DNA of 64,000 bases from Polytrichum commune (lineage: Eukaryota; Streptophyta; Polytrichopsida; Polytrichales; Polytrichaceae): the NCBI GenBank assembly GCA_950295325.1, contig OX485805.1, positions 27,081,501 through 27,145,500 on the forward strand. Reading direction: 5' to 3'. Each line of letters opens with the position of its first letter. Within the stretch, counting starts at the first letter, position 1. The notes beneath the pieces were generated by a model. That model saw only the letters and a list, made by a program, of their open reading frames with translations, had not been told where the DNA came from and searched no databases. Both the position numbers and the translations under genes were made by a program. Shown one piece after another: positions 6,496-64,000 of the stretch.

Positions 6496-6695
6496 GATCC
6501 GAGATGACCTTAAACTATTGGATGATGGTGGAGAGATACCCAAATCTCAAGGAAGAGGTTGGCGGTTCGAATCCCGGCTGTGAAATATCCTCTCTACTTG
6601 ACGGAAATCTTGCTAGGTGGTCAACTGCCTCCTGTGCTTTGGAATTGGCCTATCGGCCTTCTGTCTCAAACAAAATTTTAAAAAAATAATTTAAA
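6496..6695 (+). mobile_element. tRNA-derived SINE, copy 1
   Basis: A perfect pol III B box, GGTTCGAATCC, lies at 6564-6574. An A-box-like TGGTGGAGAG lies about 35 bp upstream (from 6527), the spacing expected of a tRNA-derived head. The body carries CTCTCTACTTGACGGAAAT and ends in an A-rich tail near 6670-6695. A weak short repeat (TCATAG) flanks it. The copy at 30871 shares head, body and A-rich tail, which separates a SINE from a lone tRNA pseudogene. Confidence 0.8.
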
Positions 6696-13689: not shown

Positions 13690-14040
13690 GTTGTCTTGCA
13701 TTGAAGTATGCAAGAGGAAGATAGTACACTAAAGACAAGTGTCATGTGTTTACATTTTAATATCCATCAAGAACATATTCTTGAGCATACTAATGCCAAT
13801 ATCATTTCTACACTTAAGTCAACTTGTAGACCATTATGTACCACAAACATACACCTCATAACACTATTGAACATACTCTTGGCTAAAATATAAGTAAGCG
13901 CACTTGAACGCCAAGTGTCATGAGGTGACACTAATGACGAAGTTGTTGGTCATTAGTGTAACTTAACATACACCTCCAAACAGGGTAAGTGACACTATTA
14001 CGCATGTGACGCTAAATACGCATAAACGGTGTAGTGTTAA
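13690..14040 (+). repeat. Single-arm copy of the 62-64 kb palindrome repeat
   Basis: Shared ordered blocks with the left arm at 62291-62990 include AGTATGCAAGAGG, AAGTGTCATGTGTTTACATT, AGTCAACTTGTAGACCATT, ACACTATTGAACATACTC, GCACTTGAACGCCAAGTGTC and GGTAAGTGACACT. It ends at CATAAACGGTGTAGTGTTA, an apparent element terminus. The opposite arm is absent here. Frames at 13708-13893 lie inside it. Confidence 0.75.
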
Positions 14041-17078: not shown

Positions 17079-17364
17079 GTGTAGTATAATGGTCGGGGAA
17101 AACCGACGGCTAGTTCATTATCAACCAATGGATCTCCCCTCATGGCCGGTCCAAATTTCCAACCATCGGATGGCAATCCGACTGTAATTTCAATCCTCCG
17201 GCAATTAGCCGATGGACCAGAAAATGTCCCAAAAATGTAGCCGATTCTTCTTGTGAGTTACTGGATTTCAGCCGGAAGAAATATTCAAATATTGGCCGAT
17301 ACCCGGGAAATGGTAACCGATACCCTCTAGGTCATGAGCATGGGTATCTGAGTGCAGGCAGGTA

Positions 17365-17595
17365 TTGAGGGATGCAGGTCAGGGCTTTGAAGATGAACGG
17401 CAACTTGCTCCGCGGCGGCGCCTCCATCAGATGGTGATGCGTGTTGCTATAGAAGGCCCAAACAATGGTTTTGATGACATTCTAACAAGTGCTCTAGATC
17501 TTTGGAAGGATGTTGCTAAGTTTCGCTATTTGTATAGCAATCCAGAGCGCTATTTGTCTGGGGCATCTGATGATGCACTTGAGGAAGTACCCTAA
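17365..17595 (+). pseudogene. Captured coding fragment inside the hAT element
   Basis: The frame reads GFEDERQLAPRRRLHQ, then DDILTSALDLWKDVAKFRYL and ends GASDDALEEVP-stop. It looks like protein sequence rather than composition noise. It is preceded by AG-ending, acceptor-like text (TGAGTGCAGGCAG at 17351-17363; GATGCAG at 17371-17377), as expected for a captured last exon. The last 17 codons survive in the second element copy with one visible change, CGC to CGT, which is synonymous. I do not recognise the family and assign no function. Confidence 0.55.
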
Positions 17596-17667
17596 ACCTT
17601 AAACTTTTTGAATTATGCAACCTTTCCATGACCAAATCCAATTGCTTCTATGAAGAATTGGGGGGAC

Positions 17668-17717
17668 CCTTGGCCTTCAAGCGGTGAAGGCATTGCTAGG
17701 TTCAATTCCTGCCAAGG
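17668..17717 (+). other. tRNA-like fold lacking an anticodon arm
   Basis: CCTTGGC (17668-17674) pairs over 7 bp with GCCAAGG (17711-17717). CTTC/GAAG closes a D-arm-like hairpin with loop AAGCGGT. AGG-TTCAATT-CCT forms a short T-arm-like hairpin, and GGTTCAATTCC resembles a pol III B box. Only about eight bases stand where the anticodon arm should be. In the second copy (63397-63446) the same fold is kept with one G-U pair. It may be a relic of a tRNA or SINE head. Confidence 0.6.
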
Positions 17718-18015
17718 ATAATAACTCTTCAAATTTAAAGTTTTGAGCATGCCTTTCTTTTCACTTATTCAAGATTTTGTACTAAGAAATGATTTCTAAT
17801 AACTTTCCATACATTTTTTAAACAATTAGTGCCGATATGAATTCCATTTAATCGGATATTGGCCAATGAAAATATGAAAATATAGGCAATTGGCCGATTG
17901 ATTTTACAAAAGACCGGCTCTTGCCGATGTAAATTGGGAAAAACCCGACCCTTCGTAGCAACTACCGGCAATTAGCCACGAAGGCTTCAAAAACTTCCCG
18001 AACTCTGGTGTAGTA

Positions 18016-40951: not shown

Positions 40952-43894
40952 ATGGCGGTACAGGCCCAGTATCCATCGAATGTCATCTTGCCAGATTACC
41001 GCAACATCAGGTACTTAGAGTCTCCTGACTCAATCCGCAACAAAGAATAATCACCAACTTACATCCACACTCCAAAAATAGGGGTGGGATAATTATCATC
41101 ACAGCATGCATCGTGCGTCGAGAAATTGGATTTGAGTTTGAACGAGGATTGGAGGGATTGATTGTTTAGAAATTGAGAGCACACGAGAAGATTTATGATC
41201 AAACAATCAAGTAATCATCGCAAATGGATGGATGGATGGGGAGAGACAGTCTATTAACTGGGAATGGAATTGTGTGTGAATCATCACAGGGCGAGGCAGA
41301 TGTTTGGTGCAGGAAGCCACAGCCGTAGTTTTATGCATCCCGTGACATTCAATCAATCTTCTCTCTTGGACGACTTTCAAATCCAACCTGATCTTGTCAC
41401 CGTCGTGCCTGGAGCGGCGCATCCGCAGCTGCGCATGAACTTCAACCAATGTGAGTTTCTTTTTCTTTTTCTTTCAACCATTGTTGAGATAAGTTACCCT
41501 TTGAATCGGCATCTCGCACCTCCGGAGGGTTATCCTTGGTTAAAACCCATAATTGACTTATGTGGAGACAATTCAGAGGTCGATTCCTTTCCAAATATCC
41601 AGAGGCTTGAATTCTCGGTGGAATTCGGCTCCGCCATGAAGCAGGTTAGGTGTAGGTCGCTGGATTGGGGAGCAGCAGTTCTTTTGAGATTTGCTGTGCG
41701 ACCAGAATTGGGTTTGAGTTTCCTCAAATCGATTAGCAACGATATTCTTCAGCATTCACAATCTTGCTTCAACTGCTAGTAGTGAGCTTTCAGGTTTTTC
41801 CAGTTAAGATAGTTTGAGCAACGAATAACACCAAGCGTCAACTTCGTCCTTCGGAAAGAGCGCCGTCATTGATGCGTAATGCTGCCATTTCTGGAGGCTT
41901 GACATTGTTTCAAACCTTCAACTTTGTGGAGAATTGAGTATGGAAAAGCAAACTGGCCCTGCCGTTACTACCGAAAACCAACGGAAAGACATTTTTTCAC
42001 AACTGTCAATAATGTCAGTTGGAGTTCATCCTTGACCTCAAAGAGTTCGTCCATTATCATTTAGTTTCCCATCGGTGTTTTGCATACCAAAATGGAAAAC
42101 TTCTTTCCACTCGCAAGTGCATGCTTGGAGGTAGTGTTTGAAATTACATGAAGAGCCAACCTCATTTCAGCACCTCTAGGCATGCCAAAATGAGTTTGAC
42201 CCTCAATGAATTACTGCCGATGTAGATACTCTTTGTTGAGTTGAAGGATCAAGCCGGCGCTTATAATTTGGAAATCTCAAAAATTCCAGAGACATTCTAG
42301 AGTGCAAGGTCTTTTGTGTTATAAACTGTTGCACAGATCAGCTAATTTGTTGATGTGATTGTTTTGGGTCCCTGCAGTGAATGGTGTAACAAGCCATAGA
42401 GAACAATCACCAGCAATTCAGATGAGTAACACACTTATCAATAAAGCTGCAGAGAGTGAGCTTGCATGTAATCTGTTAACCTCTCGCAAACGAGCCCGGG
42501 AAGATGAGGAGCTGATCCTTGTAAATTCAAGGCAGCAACATCAACAACAGCAGCAACTTCAACAACAGCAGCAACTTCAACAACAGCAGCAACTTCAACA
42601 GCAACAGCAACTTCAACAACAGCAACAGCAACAGCAACAGCAACAATTGCTGAACATAGAGTACCAGCAAACTCATCATGGGTCAGGCACAGTTTTAATT
42701 TCTCAAGGAACTGGAGTGTCCACATGCCTAAACCTTGCCTTTGAGGAGGACGACCGTCTCAACTCTACCTCTTCTGCTTCCACCAGCTGCAGGGACGTGT
42801 CTCCTTCTCTGTTGGCAGCCATGGGTGAAGATTTGAGCAGGCAACTACAGCAGCAGCGAGAGGAGGTGGAGCAGTTTTTCAAACTTCAGGTCCAAAATCT
42901 GCTCCTTCACAGTCTTATTACTATTAATTAGAGTTAAGTTGCATGGCTGTTGGTGCTAAGAAAGTTTGGGTTCGTTGAGTTTGGGATCCTACCGGCTCAG
43001 TTCGTCCGGGGTATATTAACCCTTAGGTCATGAATGACATAAAAGGTTTATGAACTCGGACACTGGTCAAATGGTTTGCCACCATTTGGCTATTGCCGCC
43101 GAGTGTGTTTGATTTGTTCCCTATTTCATTCCGGTTTCGGATTGGTAAGTTCTGTTTGCATGCTTTGTATTGAGTATGTATCCTAAACCCTAAACTCTCT
43201 CTCTCGCGATTCTTATCTTTGAGTTGTTCTTTACAAAGGGTATATCGTAGCACTACTGGTGTGGTATGGGCTTATTTATTATAACTTGCAAGTGATCTGT
43301 AGCGGAGGTGATTAGATTTGATGTCAAATTGCTGATGAAGAATTTCGTAACTTTCAGGGAGAACAAGTGCGGCAACAGCTAGAAGAGAAACGACAACGGC
43401 ACTCGCTCGAGCTACTTGGAGCAATTGAGGAAGGCCTGTCGCGCCGGCTCCGGGAGAAGGATGTGGAGATTGACAAGATGAGGCTCCGCAACCAGGAACT
43501 CGCAAAGCACGCGGAGCAGCTGACAGTGGAGGCTCACCACTGGCAGGCGAAGGTGAAGAGCAGCGAGGCCCTAGTATCCACGTTGCGGGCGAACTTGCAG
43601 CAGGCGCAAGCGGCCAGCCGAGAGCAAAGCAAGGAGGGTTGCGGGGACAGCGAAGCGGACGACGCCGCGTCCTCCCATCACGGGGACGTCGATGACATTC
43701 ACGCCCGGACGTTCAAGGAAAATCGTGAGCTCCGTGAGCAACGCACTTGTAGATCGTGCTGGACCAACGACGTCTCGATCCTACTGTTACCCTGCCGGCA
43801 TCTATGTCTCTGCAAGGAGTGCGAGGCCCGTTTGGATGCTTGCCCTCTTTGCCATTGCCTCAAAAACGCCAGCGTCCAAGTCTACATGTCTTGA
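40952..43894 (+). CDS. BOI/SBP1-like RING-type E3 ubiquitin ligase, four coding exons
   Basis: Exons are 40952-41010, 41290-41450, 42378-42889 and 43358-43894. All three introns are GT-AG and the phases join exactly, giving 422 residues. The protein begins MAVQAQYPSN, the usual start of plant BOI/BRG/SBP1 proteins, and the ATG lies in a good context (gggaaaATGGCG). Residues 109-118 are a basic NLS-like patch (SRKRAREDEE). Residues 126-163 are a polyglutamine tract broken by regular leucines. Residues about 205-325 form a charged coiled coil around the exon 3/4 junction (KLQ|GEQVRQQ), the conserved substrate-binding region of the family. The C-terminal RING is C3HC4 with ligands C375, C378, C390, H392, C396, C399, C406 and C409; all are present. 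Known family members ubiquitinate or restrain transcription factors and limit cell death and gibberellin responses; the substrate here cannot be read from sequence. The family call is strong; the specific orthologue is not resolved. Confidence 0.93.
42533..42650 (+). repeat. 18-bp coding minisatellite (polyglutamine-leucine)
   Basis: Within exon 3 the unit CAACAACAGCAGCAACTT recurs about four times and then decays into CAACAG repeats. Each unit encodes five Gln and one Leu, so copy number changes keep the frame. Glutamine-rich stretches are known in some members of the family, but the perfectly spaced leucines here come from the DNA repeat unit. Confidence 0.9.
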
Positions 43895-43945
43895 CCTAAT
43901 TACAAGTTCATCACCAATCCGGTCTGAACCCAGGTGTCGATCCAA

Positions 43946-44106
43946 TTGTTCCCGGCCGGAATCTATGTTTTTGCAAGGAGGGCGAGGCGCGTCTGGAAGC
44001 ATGCCCCCTTGGCCATTGCTTAAAAAATGCCACCGTGCGAGCCTACATGTCTTGACCTAATTACGACTCCATCACCGGTCCGCTGCGATTCGATGTGTCG
44101 ATCCAA
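43946..44106 (+). pseudogene. Second, frameshifted copy of the RING C-terminal segment
   Basis: This is a tandem copy of 43784-43945, the last 111 coding bases plus stop and linker of the RING gene. It starts at the stretch matching the LLLPCRH codons and ends at a TGA and linker that match the first unit. One base is missing near the start (ccggccgg against ccctgccgg), so the RING frame is lost, and codons for two zinc ligands are altered. No intron or upstream exon is repeated. The unit period is 162 bp. Confidence 0.85.
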
Positions 44107-48320: not shown

Positions 48321-48348
48321 GTGTCCCTGAAAAATGTGAAAAACTTAT

Positions 48349-49056
48349 GACAATGGTGGATTTCTGCACTCCTTCCCAACATGAGGATTGCCCAAAGAGT
48401 CTTAAGTTGGTTATATCAGTTTTGTTTGTTTACCAAAAAAGCTGGAACATATGTTGGAAACGAAAAGGTGTCCATTATAGGGATGATATGGACATGCACA
48501 AACAAAAGAAGTCGTACTGGTGCGGCGAGAAAGCGAGTAGGCGATGAGTGGGGATGACTTACGACAACGTGAAAACTTACGACAATGGTAGATTTCCGCA
48601 CTTCTTCCCAACACGAGGATTGCCCAAAGAGTCTTAAGCTGGTAATGTTAGTTTTGTTTGTTTATCAAACGATTTGGAGCATATGTTGGAACCCAAAAGG
48701 TGTCCATTATAGGGATGCTACGGACACGCACAAACCAAAGAAGTCGTGTTGCTGCGACGAGAAAGAGAGTAGGCGAGGGAGTGGGTAGACTTACGACAAT
48801 GGTAGATTTCCGTGCTTCTTCCAAACACAAGGATTGCCCAAAGAGTCTTCAGCTGGGTATGTCAGTTTTGTTTGTTTATCAAATGATTTGGAACATATGT
48901 TGGAACCCAAAAGGTGTCCATTATAGGGATGCTACGGACACACACAAACAAAACAAGTCGTGCTACTGCGACGAGAAAGAGAGTAGGCGAGGGAGTGAGT
49001 AGACTTATGACAATGGTAGATACAGATTTCCATGCTTCTTCCAAACACGAGGATTG
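48349..49056 (+). repeat. Tandem array, three full units of about 213-232 bp plus a partial
   Basis: Units begin at GACAATGGT-GATTTC (48349, 48581, 48794, 49008). Each holds GAGGATTGCCCAAAGAGTCT, TTTTGTTTGTTTA, AACATATGTTGGAA, AAAGGTGTCCATTATAGGGA and GAAGTCGT-CT or its variant. The fourth breaks off near 49056. Mirror frames on both strands here are repeat products. Confidence 0.88.
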
Positions 49057-49870: not shown

Positions 49871-52190
49871 ACCATTCAATGTTCCAACTAAAGTTTCATA
49901 TGTAGACATGCTTGGCCCACCAACCTTGCAACACCTTCCTGGCTACAAGAATAGAATTGCATCTGAAACTATTTTTTTTCTTTTTCTTTCTTGTGTTTCA
50001 CCCTCTATTTGACATTTAACAAGTGGATAACAAGTTAAGCTTGTTGCTTTTGGAGTAGAGACGAATAACCTTATGATTTTTTTTATGGTGAGAATCATCG
50101 ATGACCTATGATGATATTCTCAATTTGGATATGTCCATTTAAAGCTTTAATTTGCACTGATTGACACGTTAGAGCCCACTATACGACGCAACGGTTCATG
50201 ATAGGTGCACTTTTCTTAAGTACCGTCATCACAACTTTTTAATCGATAAACCGACAGTGTGAGTCTGTATCATCATACCCTCCTCCTGCATATTTTATGA
50301 CGTTTTATGAGCCCAGCCCTGCCATTCTGCTTTGCTGATCCAACAAGCAGTGAGTTCCAAGTCAGCCAGAACTAACAAAGCTGCTCGAACGTCTGTGCCT
50401 GTTGGATTTCCAGGCAGTCTACCAGAGCTTACTCCACTAAACTAGGGCTCATTAGTGTCACCAACCCTAATTTTCCCGACAGTTTGTAAGCATCCCAAAG
50501 AGTTACTATTACTAAGGTAGAAATACCATTACCCGTGAAAATAAGGTGATTCGCATTGAAGATCTGGTCTGACAATCATGAGATAATTTCTCAATATAGA
50601 TGAGAAGGATTCATGAAGAATGCAAGTTGTTTCATATTTTTTTGCCATATACAAAAAATGCTATAATTTTTCAAAGTGGAAAGTTGTCCAACCCCTTACT
50701 TGTTCATTAGATTCTCCCTACACCGAACACGGTAATCCGCATTTCCATACGGAACATCGCCTAAATCGGTTACCTCATGAGTACATGAACACTTGACTCC
50801 CATTGGCTACACTAAGTGTACACGCATTGAAATTGCCGCTGAGTCATGATCCGTTTTAGAAATGGCACTTCACCATTATGACGGCGGTCTAGTGCACGGC
50901 TAAAGGGTGGTTAATGGGTTGTGGTATTTCTATCTTATAACATTAATATGTATTACCACGTTGTTACATACCTATCAAGGTACATTGCTTATTGTGATAC
51001 TTGGGTCCATACTATACCTAGCATAGTATGTCCTCGAAAAATACTCATGTTGAGACCATTACTACGGAAGACATATCTTGAGAATAGTCTAGGTAGGAGT
51101 ATTTAAGGCTTGATAACCTATGATAAATAGAGGAAAGAATTGTGGTGGTTAAGTGCTCCCTCTTAGGGAGCCACATTGGTTGGATGTCTGAGTGGGTGCA
51201 CACAATATTGGTTATTGTAACATGAAGATGCAAGTGGGCACGATCACGTGAATCGATTTTGGATTAAGTGAAATGGTTGAGGTAATCAATTGAAAGGTCT
51301 ACAATACCCGTACGTTGGGTACCCGATGTTGGGTGAGGGAATCTTAATGCCAATACCATACTTATATTTAGTCACAAATAAATATATTACTTGTACCTTG
51401 CCTATATCATACCTGACCTTTATAATGGAATACCATTAACATACCCACCCTATCAAATTTGGGAACTCTTTGTACTAGGGCCAGTCCGGTACATCATAAT
51501 TGTGATACCAATTCAACATTGGCCAATACCATATTGATACGAGGATGATTTTGCCTAGGGGTATATGGAGGTTCTTGCATGGTATATAGACCCGAATGAT
51601 CATTGATATCAATTGAACACAAACACATCGTCACACACCCATACCCGATTGGTATAAAAAAATGTGAACTCTCCATTAAAGATACCATAATGGTTCCAAA
51701 ACAAAGGCAATCCGAGACCAACACCATACTAAATATTGTATTTAATGTCATTGTGGTAATGTTTCTAGTAACACTTCTTATGTTTAAGTGTACAAATATT
51801 GTCATCCCAACTTACATTTAGTGCATCCAATTGCCAATTATTGAAACTAAGATTGGTATATTTTGCATCCTTACATTTATGTAAGGAAATATAGTCATGG
51901 ATAATTGAAATCTGGATGAAAATCACTTAGTAAGTTACAATTTTCACAGTGTTTACAATGGGATTTGAACCCGCAACTTTTGGAGATAGAATGTCCCATT
52001 TTTTATTTGATTTTCAACAAGGAATAACAAATAATCTTAGGTCTACATTTAATGTTGGTGACGCTACACGGGCGGTTTAGAATTCACATTGAGCAAAACA
52101 AATCGAACTGGTGACACTAAATACAATTTTGGTATAGTTTTTACTGCACTCCCAAAATGGTGGATGTGGGGAAACAAACTCCATCAATTA
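49871..52190. other. Long non-coding stretch
   Basis: No gene or complete element is recognised. The part 51290-51830 is rich in short phrases such as AATACCATA and CCCGATTGG without a clear period. Confidence 0.35.
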
Positions 52191-62377: not shown

Positions 62378-62742
62378 GGGCCGGTTTACACTACGGTGGA
62401 GAAGTCCACCGGTCATGAAAAAAAGGGCGTTTCTCAATTGTGATTGGTTGAAAATGCAACTCTTGACCGGTGGGTGTTTACACTAGGTGAAGAAAACAAT
62501 GTTGGTGAACTTTTCTCATGGATGATAAAATGACATGTAGGCGGCACTTTTTGGAGTTGGGCTTCTCCGGCCTCTTGAGGCCGGACAAGAAACTCCTCCT
62601 CCGGAGAAGCCCAACTCAATAAAAATATTTTATTGCCTTTAATTCTTCTCCGGCACATCCACCATTTGCCTCATATAACCATGTCTTGGCCAAGCATTCT
62701 TGACCGACCGGAGGCCTTCTCCACCGTAGTGTAAACCGGCCC
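62378..62742. mobile_element. Tourist-like MITE inside the palindrome's left arm
   Basis: The 365-bp element is flanked by TAA (62375-62377, 62743-62745). The ends GGGCCGGTTTACACTACGGT and GGAGAAG form a perfect 27-bp TIR with the right end. The palindrome's arm text (ATACTC before, GCATGCTAATGG after) continues across it. Confidence 0.93.
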
Positions 62743-63106
62743 TAAGCATGCTAATGGCAAGTGCTATTGGTGTACACTTTAGTCAACTTATAGACCATTG
62801 TGTAACACATGCATGCACCTTGCAACACTATTGAACATACTCATGCCAAGATATTAGTAAACGCACTTGAACGCCAAGTGTCATGAGGTGACAATCATGA
62901 TGAAATTGTTGGTCATTAGTGTAACCTAGCATGCACCTCAAAATAGGGTAAGTGACACTTTTATGCATGTGACACTAAATAAAGTAGAAGTACACCATTT
63001 ATGGTATTTAGAGTCACATGCGTAATAATGTCACTTCCTCTATTTTGAGGTGTATCGTAGGTTACACCGATGATCAACAACTTCACCATAATTGTCACCT
63101 CATGAC

Positions 63107-63766
63107 CAGAGTTTGGGAAGTTTTTGAAGCCTTAGTGGCTAATTGCCGGTAGTTGCTACGAAGGGTCGGATTTTTTCCAATTTACATCGGCAAGAGCCGG
63201 TCTTTTGTAAAATCAATCAGCCAATTGCCTATATTTTCATATTTTCATTGGCCAATATCTGATTAAATGGAATTCATATCGGCACTAATTGTTTTAAAAA
63301 TGTATGAAAAGTTATTAGAAATCATTTCTTAGTACAAAATCTTGAATAAGTGAAAAGAAAGGCATGTTCAAAACTTTAAATTTGAAGAGTTAATATCCTT
63401 GACAGGAATTGAACCTAGCAATGCCTTCACCGCTTGAAGGCCAAGGGTCCCCCAATTCTTCATAGAAGCAATTGGATTTGGTCATGGAAAGGTTGCATTA
63501 TTCAAGAAGTTTAAGGTTTAGGGTACTTCCTCAAGTGCATCATCAGATGCCCCAGACAAATAACGCTCTGGATGCTTCCGGCTGAAATCCAGTAACTCAC
63601 AAGAAGAATCGGCTACATTTCCGGGACATTTTTTGGTCCATCGGCTAATTGCCGGAGGATTGAAATTACAGTCGGATTGCCATCCGATGGTTGGAAATTT
63701 GGACCGGCCATGAGGGAAAATCCATCGGCTAATAATGAACTAGCCGTCGGTTTTCCCCGAACATAG
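63107..63766 (-). mobile_element. Non-autonomous hAT element, short copy, inside the palindrome's right arm
   Basis: The 660-bp element is bounded by exact CTCATGAC duplications (63099-63106 and 63767-63774). The undisturbed site can be seen in the related text near 13910-13930 (AAGTGTCATGAGGTGACA, inverted). The ends CAGAGTTTGGGAAG and, inverted, CTATGTTCGGGGAA match those of 17087-18007. It lacks the 262 bp between GCCGGAAG and TCCAGAGCG but keeps the reading-frame tail and the tRNA-like fold. Confidence 0.93.
63397..63446 (-). other. tRNA-like fold, second copy
   Basis: On the minus strand CCTTGGC pairs with GTCAAGG, where a C-to-T change turns one G-C pair into G-U and so keeps the stem. 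The D-arm-like CTTC/GAAG and T-arm-like AGG-TTCAATT-CCT hairpins are unchanged. Confidence 0.6.
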
Positions 63767-64000
63767 CTCATGACACTTGGCGTGCAAGTGCGTTTCCCAA
63801 CATCTTGGCATGATCATGTTCAATAGTGTTGCGAGGTGCATGCATGTGTTACACAATGGTCTACAAGTTGACTAAAGTGTACACACATGACACTTGCCAT
63901 TAGTATGCTCAGAACATCTCCCTTTCGCATACTAAAATGTAAACACTTGACACTTGCCCACTACTATGCTCAAGAAATATCAACCCCTTGCATACTCAAA

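Follow-up and report, generated by a model that had tools for sequence, protein, structure and literature searches.

Two related elements lie in opposite orientations within a 64,000-nt stretch of the Polytrichum commune genome, here called the window. A sequence-only reading had taken them for hAT elements that carry a tRNA-like fold and the tail of a captured exon, and had proposed that both were transposed independently. Has this family picked up a piece of a host gene and a structured RNA? Or, are the coding-looking frame and the fold parts of the element itself? We put the probability at about 95% that the two loci belong to a single plant hAT family as non-autonomous, MITE-like members, derived from a parent of about 5 kb by internal deletion, with the ends kept, and moved in trans.

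The paired elements are real, as are their ends and the exact 8-bp duplications that flank them, which differ between the two copies as had been reported (GTGTAGTA and CTCATGAC; Table 1). Aligned over 660 nt, the copies differ by 26 substitutions, of which 19 are transitions, and by one 1-nt indel. A 260-nt block of copy 1 (17279-17538) is absent in copy 2. The terminal inverted repeats are short and imperfect, with 7 of 12 and 8 of 20 positions matching in each window copy. At the deletion junction of copy 1, most of the other copies read hold extra sequence between the 5' part and the transposase tail. The identification of the elements as hAT and non-autonomous is borne out by the 8-bp duplications of both window copies and by dozens of relatives in the genome.

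Table 1. Features of the two hAT copies and of the repeat interrupted by copy 2 (window coordinates).
Feature	Position	Strand	Remark
Copy 1 target-site duplication, left, GTGTAGTA	17079-17086		same 8 bp flanking both sides
Copy 1, 921-bp non-autonomous hAT element, probable internal-deletion derivative	17087-18007	+	ends common with the 5050-bp element L041
Copy 1 left (5') end; its subterminal repeats are GCCGAT / CGGCAATTAGCC	17087-17428	+	matches left end of L041
Copy 1 deletion junction (query 342/349)	17429-17434		extra sequence here in most other copies read
Remnant of the element's transposase gene (final ~53 codons), stop TAA at 17593-17595 (formerly 'captured exon tail')	17435-17595	+	
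Element 3' non-coding sequence (formerly 'tRNA-like fold')	17665-17720	+	structure not significant
Copy 1 right (3') subterminal and terminal region; other-strand terminus CAGAG	17831-18007	+	
Copy 1 target-site duplication, right, GTGTAGTA	18008-18015		identical to left 8 bp
Long-palindrome repeat interrupted by copy 2	62742-63912		other arm and 13736-14033 give the unoccupied site
Copy 2 target-site duplication, CTCATGAC	63099-63106		same 8 bp both sides
Copy 2, belonging to the 660-bp deletion class, whose junction lies at 192/454 of copy 1	63107-63766	-	
Copy 2 target-site duplication, second half, CTCATGAC	63767-63774		same 8 bp both sides

The family was surveyed by searching copy 1 against the genome of the window (407.8 Mb in 64 contigs). 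With 40 of 1075 first-look candidates scored, at least 78 matches were obtained. At least 41 copies span from position 349 or earlier to position 919 or later, 38 of them at 96–98% identity and the rest at 100% (copy 1 itself), 94% and 89%; this sample is biased toward copies that retain the right part. Sequence was fetched for 40 loci (L001-L040), in which both ends could be set in 39 element copies, copy 1 included as L001; L004 and L029 have no left end within the fetched stretch. At the predicted ends an exact 8-bp duplication is present in 27 of the 39 and a 7/8 match in a further 6, leaving 6 that do not fit. One of these, L015, becomes exact if its right end is shifted by 1 nt, so that even with L015 counted 5 of 39 copies have no fitting duplication. 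The Ac-like group of hAT elements has the duplication consensus nTnnnnAn, and here 22 of 34 duplications have T at position 2 and 23 of 34 have A at position 7.

A second search used only the left 184 nt (40 of 820 candidates scored, 30 loci read). The script delimited 25 of these loci, including L052, which is the same copy as L015. Outside the 25 are L044, which is copy 1 and was missed by the rule of the script, and L051, L054, L056 and L071, none of which has a right end within the stretch fetched. Homogeneous amplified length classes are present in the two samples. An 822-bp class accounts for 11 of the 39 copies delimited in the first search, whose lengths range from 744 to 1765 bp, and the junction of copy 2 recurs in 20 of the 25 delimited left-end copies among the 30 loci read, which places copy 2 in an amplified deletion class. 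The duplications of this 660-bp class (n = 20) are exact in 14 copies, match at 7/8 in 1 and do not fit in 5. Copy 1 is a separate derivative outside this class.

One relative is a full-length, 5050-bp element (L041, an extended fetch of the place of L029) with CTGTGGCC on each side as an exact 8-bp duplication. It matches copy 1 at 93.8% over the left 341 nt and at 96.9% over the right 573 nt, and its interior consists of broken transposase pieces that end in the 'captured exon' frame of copy 1. The short copies have both ends in common with a longer transposase-bearing element and lack a complete transposase, as do MITE-like deletion derivatives. In the sequence of events that we favour, a parent of about 5 kb with a transposase would lose its interior and keep both ends. 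A hAT transposase able to recognise the common ends would then mobilise the shortened copies in trans, each new insertion generating an 8-bp duplication. Varying breakpoints would leave different lengths of the transposase 3' end, about 53 codons in copy 1 and 17 in copy 2, and the frame and the 'fold' would simply travel with the right end and drift.

Is the right end kept for a reason? The sequence-only reading held that copies lacking both the fold and the frame would count against it, and such copies were not clearly found among the 25 delimited left-end copies. The fold is kept in all 25; the frame is absent in 1, and the first of the last 17 codons is absent in 2 more. In three further loci (L051, L056 and L071) the fetched stretch contains no complete fold, but the right end is missing there too. 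The retention in 25 of 25 is a point against our reading; it may only mean that breakpoints rarely fall so far to the right, or the right end may be required in cis. It is conceivable, though we think it unlikely, that the long right end kept in nearly all derivatives is an extended cis-acting transposition signal, perhaps with the hairpin region as part of it; right ends would then be retained because the transposase needs them, rather than through chance placement of the breakpoints.

Very unlikely, though slightly less so than the two rival explanations taken up below, is a functional role of the 56-nt segment as a tRNA-like or tRNA-derived (SINE) module under selection, for example a pol III promoter. 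Besides its retention in the 25 delimited copies, such a module would be consistent with a B-box-like string, GGTTCAATTCC, at 17699 in both copies, and with a 7-bp outer stem in copy 1; similar B-box-like strings are, however, also found at 6564 and 51961. The minimum free energies of the segment are -19.2 kcal/mol in copy 1 and -17.3 kcal/mol in copy 2, and only 126 and 260, respectively, of 11,628 window 56-mers equal or beat them, placing both among the best 1–2% by raw energy. This low energy is largely due to composition, since against dinucleotide shuffles the values do not reach significance at 5% (z -1.64, p 0.057; z -1.45, p 0.085). The predicted branching is also unlike between the two copies.

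Neither a covariance model nor a tRNA finder recognised a tRNA. Rfam gave no match at gathering level in the window and none in the 86 nt around the fold; over 1101 nt at E ≤10 it gave six weak matches, all below the gathering score and none to a tRNA. ARAGORN found nothing at default settings. At very low thresholds it returned hundreds of candidates, weak ones near the fold included, and these were set aside.

Nor is the segment conserved above its neighbours. The right 573 nt were aligned for 42 copies, comprising 38 delimited copies (without L001), L029, L004 and both window copies, with copy 2 represented only by the part that it has. Variability of the fold is 0.0140, and 65% of non-coding stretches of that length vary as little or less; for the 660-bp class the corresponding figure, taken over all equal-length stretches, is 72%. 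Across the 17 predicted pairs, which give 714 cells, 9 cells are broken, 9 stay paired through a one-sided change and none shows a compensatory change. The tRNA-like fold of the sequence-only reading is thus not upheld, and we read the segment as 3' non-coding sequence of the element.

Where does the frame come from? In longer copies the reading frame extends upstream of the part kept in copy 1, and its end, ATCERAFSVQNTIKQKLRNRMSTSNLESMMRVAIEGP, is found in several of them. The tail of one such copy, L018, matches the hAT C-terminal dimerisation region (PF05699, Dimer_Tnp_hAT) with E 1.7e-7 and a score of 31.3 bits, above the cut-off of 21.4, and this match stops where the frame of copy 1 starts. 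The tail of L029/L041 matches PF05699 at 18.9 bits, below the same cut-off. Together with the transposase ending of L041, the PF05699 stretch adjoining the frame in longer copies shows that the frame is the tail of the element's own transposase and not a captured exon. Related transposase-like long frames are common in the genome, many at 53–66% identity and some free of stops within the match. Of two such frames compared with PF05699 both match, L090 above the cut-off and L078 just below, so that a hAT transposase with its C-terminal dimerisation region is represented in the family above cut-off by the L018 tail and by the relative L090. A 321-aa core piece of L029/L041 had no match in Pfam that marks a transposase, and among 124 of 649 candidates scored no intact transposase above 90% identity to this core was found besides the match of L041 itself. 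Searches of the longer tail and one relative against solved structures gave no useful match.

The 76-residue peptide, for which a search for a host parent gene had been proposed, was misdescribed. It is a composite of the 5' part of the element and, from about 17432, the last ~53 transposase codons, and the two parts meet at the deletion junction (about 17429-17434). Stop-to-stop stretches of at least 85 codons are not rare, numbering 86 of 7140 in the window. The peptide matched no family in Pfam or NCBIfam. As is usual for a plant sequence, neither the peptide in genomes of bacteria and archaea nor two DNA patterns in viral_contigs and genome_contigs gave a match. In PDB the peptide matched 13 sequences at E ≤10; the best two (E 1.5e-5 and 2.6e-4) arise only by summing weak matches to repeated zinc fingers, no single stretch passing, and were set aside.

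These observations leave it highly improbable that the elements are Pack-TYPE hATs that took up the terminal part of a host gene together with the adjoining 3' flank. Such elements are known, the available portion of PMC8903248 describing Pack-hATs of maize and rice that carry parts of host genes, and the frame is indeed open up to its stop, with one synonymous difference in its last 17 codons. The same frame, however, terminates the transposase in full-length L041 and directly follows the hAT dimerisation region in longer copies. In a protein search with the tail (150 of 2153 candidates scored, individual matches looked at in part), several matches at 66–69% identity adjoin matches to the transposase core, the arrangement expected if the tail belongs to a transposase. 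The interior that looks coding is the end of the transposase and does not come from a host gene. An internally deleted DNA transposon can therefore mimic gene capture: two copies alone suggest a captured exon, and the family in the same genome reveals the transposase's own tail.

The frame had also been credited with constraint. Over the last 17 codons (PERYLSGASDDALEEVP) the two window copies do show a single, synonymous difference (CGC/CGT, at 17550), as noted from the sequence alone. The count stands but is no evidence of constraint: one difference in 51 positions of the frame and one in 56 of the fold are ordinary against 26 in 660 overall (binomial p 0.375 and 0.32), the differences leaning toward the left end (dispersion p 0.05). 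The expectation that the fold and frame evolve more slowly than their flanks fails in the 42 copies, where the fold is ordinary and the frame faster. The frame varies most among six regions, with a mean minor-allele frequency of 0.0213 against 0.0134 for the remaining, non-coding sequence. Its first, second and third codon positions have 0.031, 0.024 and 0.011, so that the third is the least variable. Within the 660-bp class (21 copies including copy 2) the frame, at 0.026, again varies more than the left end (0.012) and the remainder of the right side (0.017). Relative to the majority, the distinct changes in the frame comprise 12 that are synonymous, 52 that are non-synonymous and 3 that create a stop, with a non-synonymous to synonymous ratio of 4.58 against 2.59 expected under an assumed transition weighting. 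Uneven mutability might account for this excess, and is the only explanation that we offer. An in-frame stop is present in 9 of 41 copies. By these measures the frame bears no sign of purifying selection.

Eight of the stop-bearing copies of the 42-copy alignment have the same G->T at 17545, and they differ in length and deletion structure. The stop may stem from repeated origin from one stop-bearing parent, from recombination between copies or from recurrence.

The insertion history of copy 2 can be read directly. It interrupts a repeat whose arms of 146 nt each (62742-62887 and 63767-63912) are 90% complementary. When the flanks of copy 2 are joined at a single CTCATGAC, they align continuously through the other arm of the repeat (within 62742-63106), and the relative at 13736-14033 is continuous with the joined flanks as well, again with only one CTCATGAC. 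Two related sites with a single CTCATGAC thus demonstrate both the empty site of copy 2 and its 8-bp duplication. No unoccupied site for copy 1 was found within the 64-kb window. That the two copies are instead products of a segmental duplication is next to impossible: they do lie in one 64-kb window and are 96% identical over 660 nt, but their duplications are unlike, their flanks unrelated (no homology was found between them beyond the duplications), their deletion structures different, and copy 2 has a direct empty site. Independent transposition, as the sequence-only reading had it, is upheld by the duplications, by the unoccupied counterparts of the copy 2 site and by the differing duplications of dozens of copies. 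Its other interpretations, hAT identity and non-autonomy, also hold; those of a captured exon and a constrained tRNA-like fold do not.

The elements make up a MITE-like hAT family, a kind already known. In Ac/Ds of maize an autonomous element is accompanied by internally deleted derivatives moved in trans. The present family is like that system in its internally deleted derivatives and probable mobilisation in trans, a likeness of description. For the Mar MITEs of Drosophila, the accessible part of PMC3517528 explains the elements by internal deletion of a hAT followed by amplification and reports a relic full-length copy; for the BuT2 MITEs, also of Drosophila, internal deletion and amplification is the suggestion of the authors in the portion seen of PMC3942097. 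As far as these partial texts go, the P. commune elements are, like both, short and non-autonomous, with the termini of a larger hAT and 8-bp duplications. Unlike them, they reside in a plant genome, measure 631–1765 bp among the derivatives read and in many cases keep part of the transposase 3' end; here too the likeness is one of description. With the Pack-hATs, as presented in the same portion of PMC8903248, they have in common a non-autonomous hAT structure, a coding-looking interior and 8-nt duplications, the difference being that the interior here is the end of the element's own transposase and not a host gene. For annotation the family is useful, offering a full-length relic, several classes of deletion and a clean empty site; it introduces no new principle.

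Several other features were observed. One fetched locus (L013, G000:C5:44990922-44991492, 44991535-44992105) contains two element copies tail to tail, 42 nt apart, whose right arms show 0 differences over 571 nt against 3% in the median pair of copies; recent aberrant transposition or gene conversion is suggested. The repeat at 62742-63912 and the one at 13736-14033 belong to a family of long, near-symmetrical palindromic repeats. Without copy 2 the former measures 365 nt and is self-complementary at 84%, and related fragments occur elsewhere in the window. The B-box-like strings GGTTCGAATCC at 6564 (+) and GGTTCAAATCC at 51961 (-) are possibly SINE fragments. Open frames resembling exons lie at 42359-43891 and are probably an ordinary plant gene; one has a C3HC4 RING finger (PF13920, E 1e-9), the other a glutamine-rich stretch. 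A 161-nt stretch (43790-43950) is repeated in tandem to 44111, and at 48343-49002 a 214-nt unit is present three times, nearly in tandem, the other two copies being 85 and 93% identical to the reference copy.
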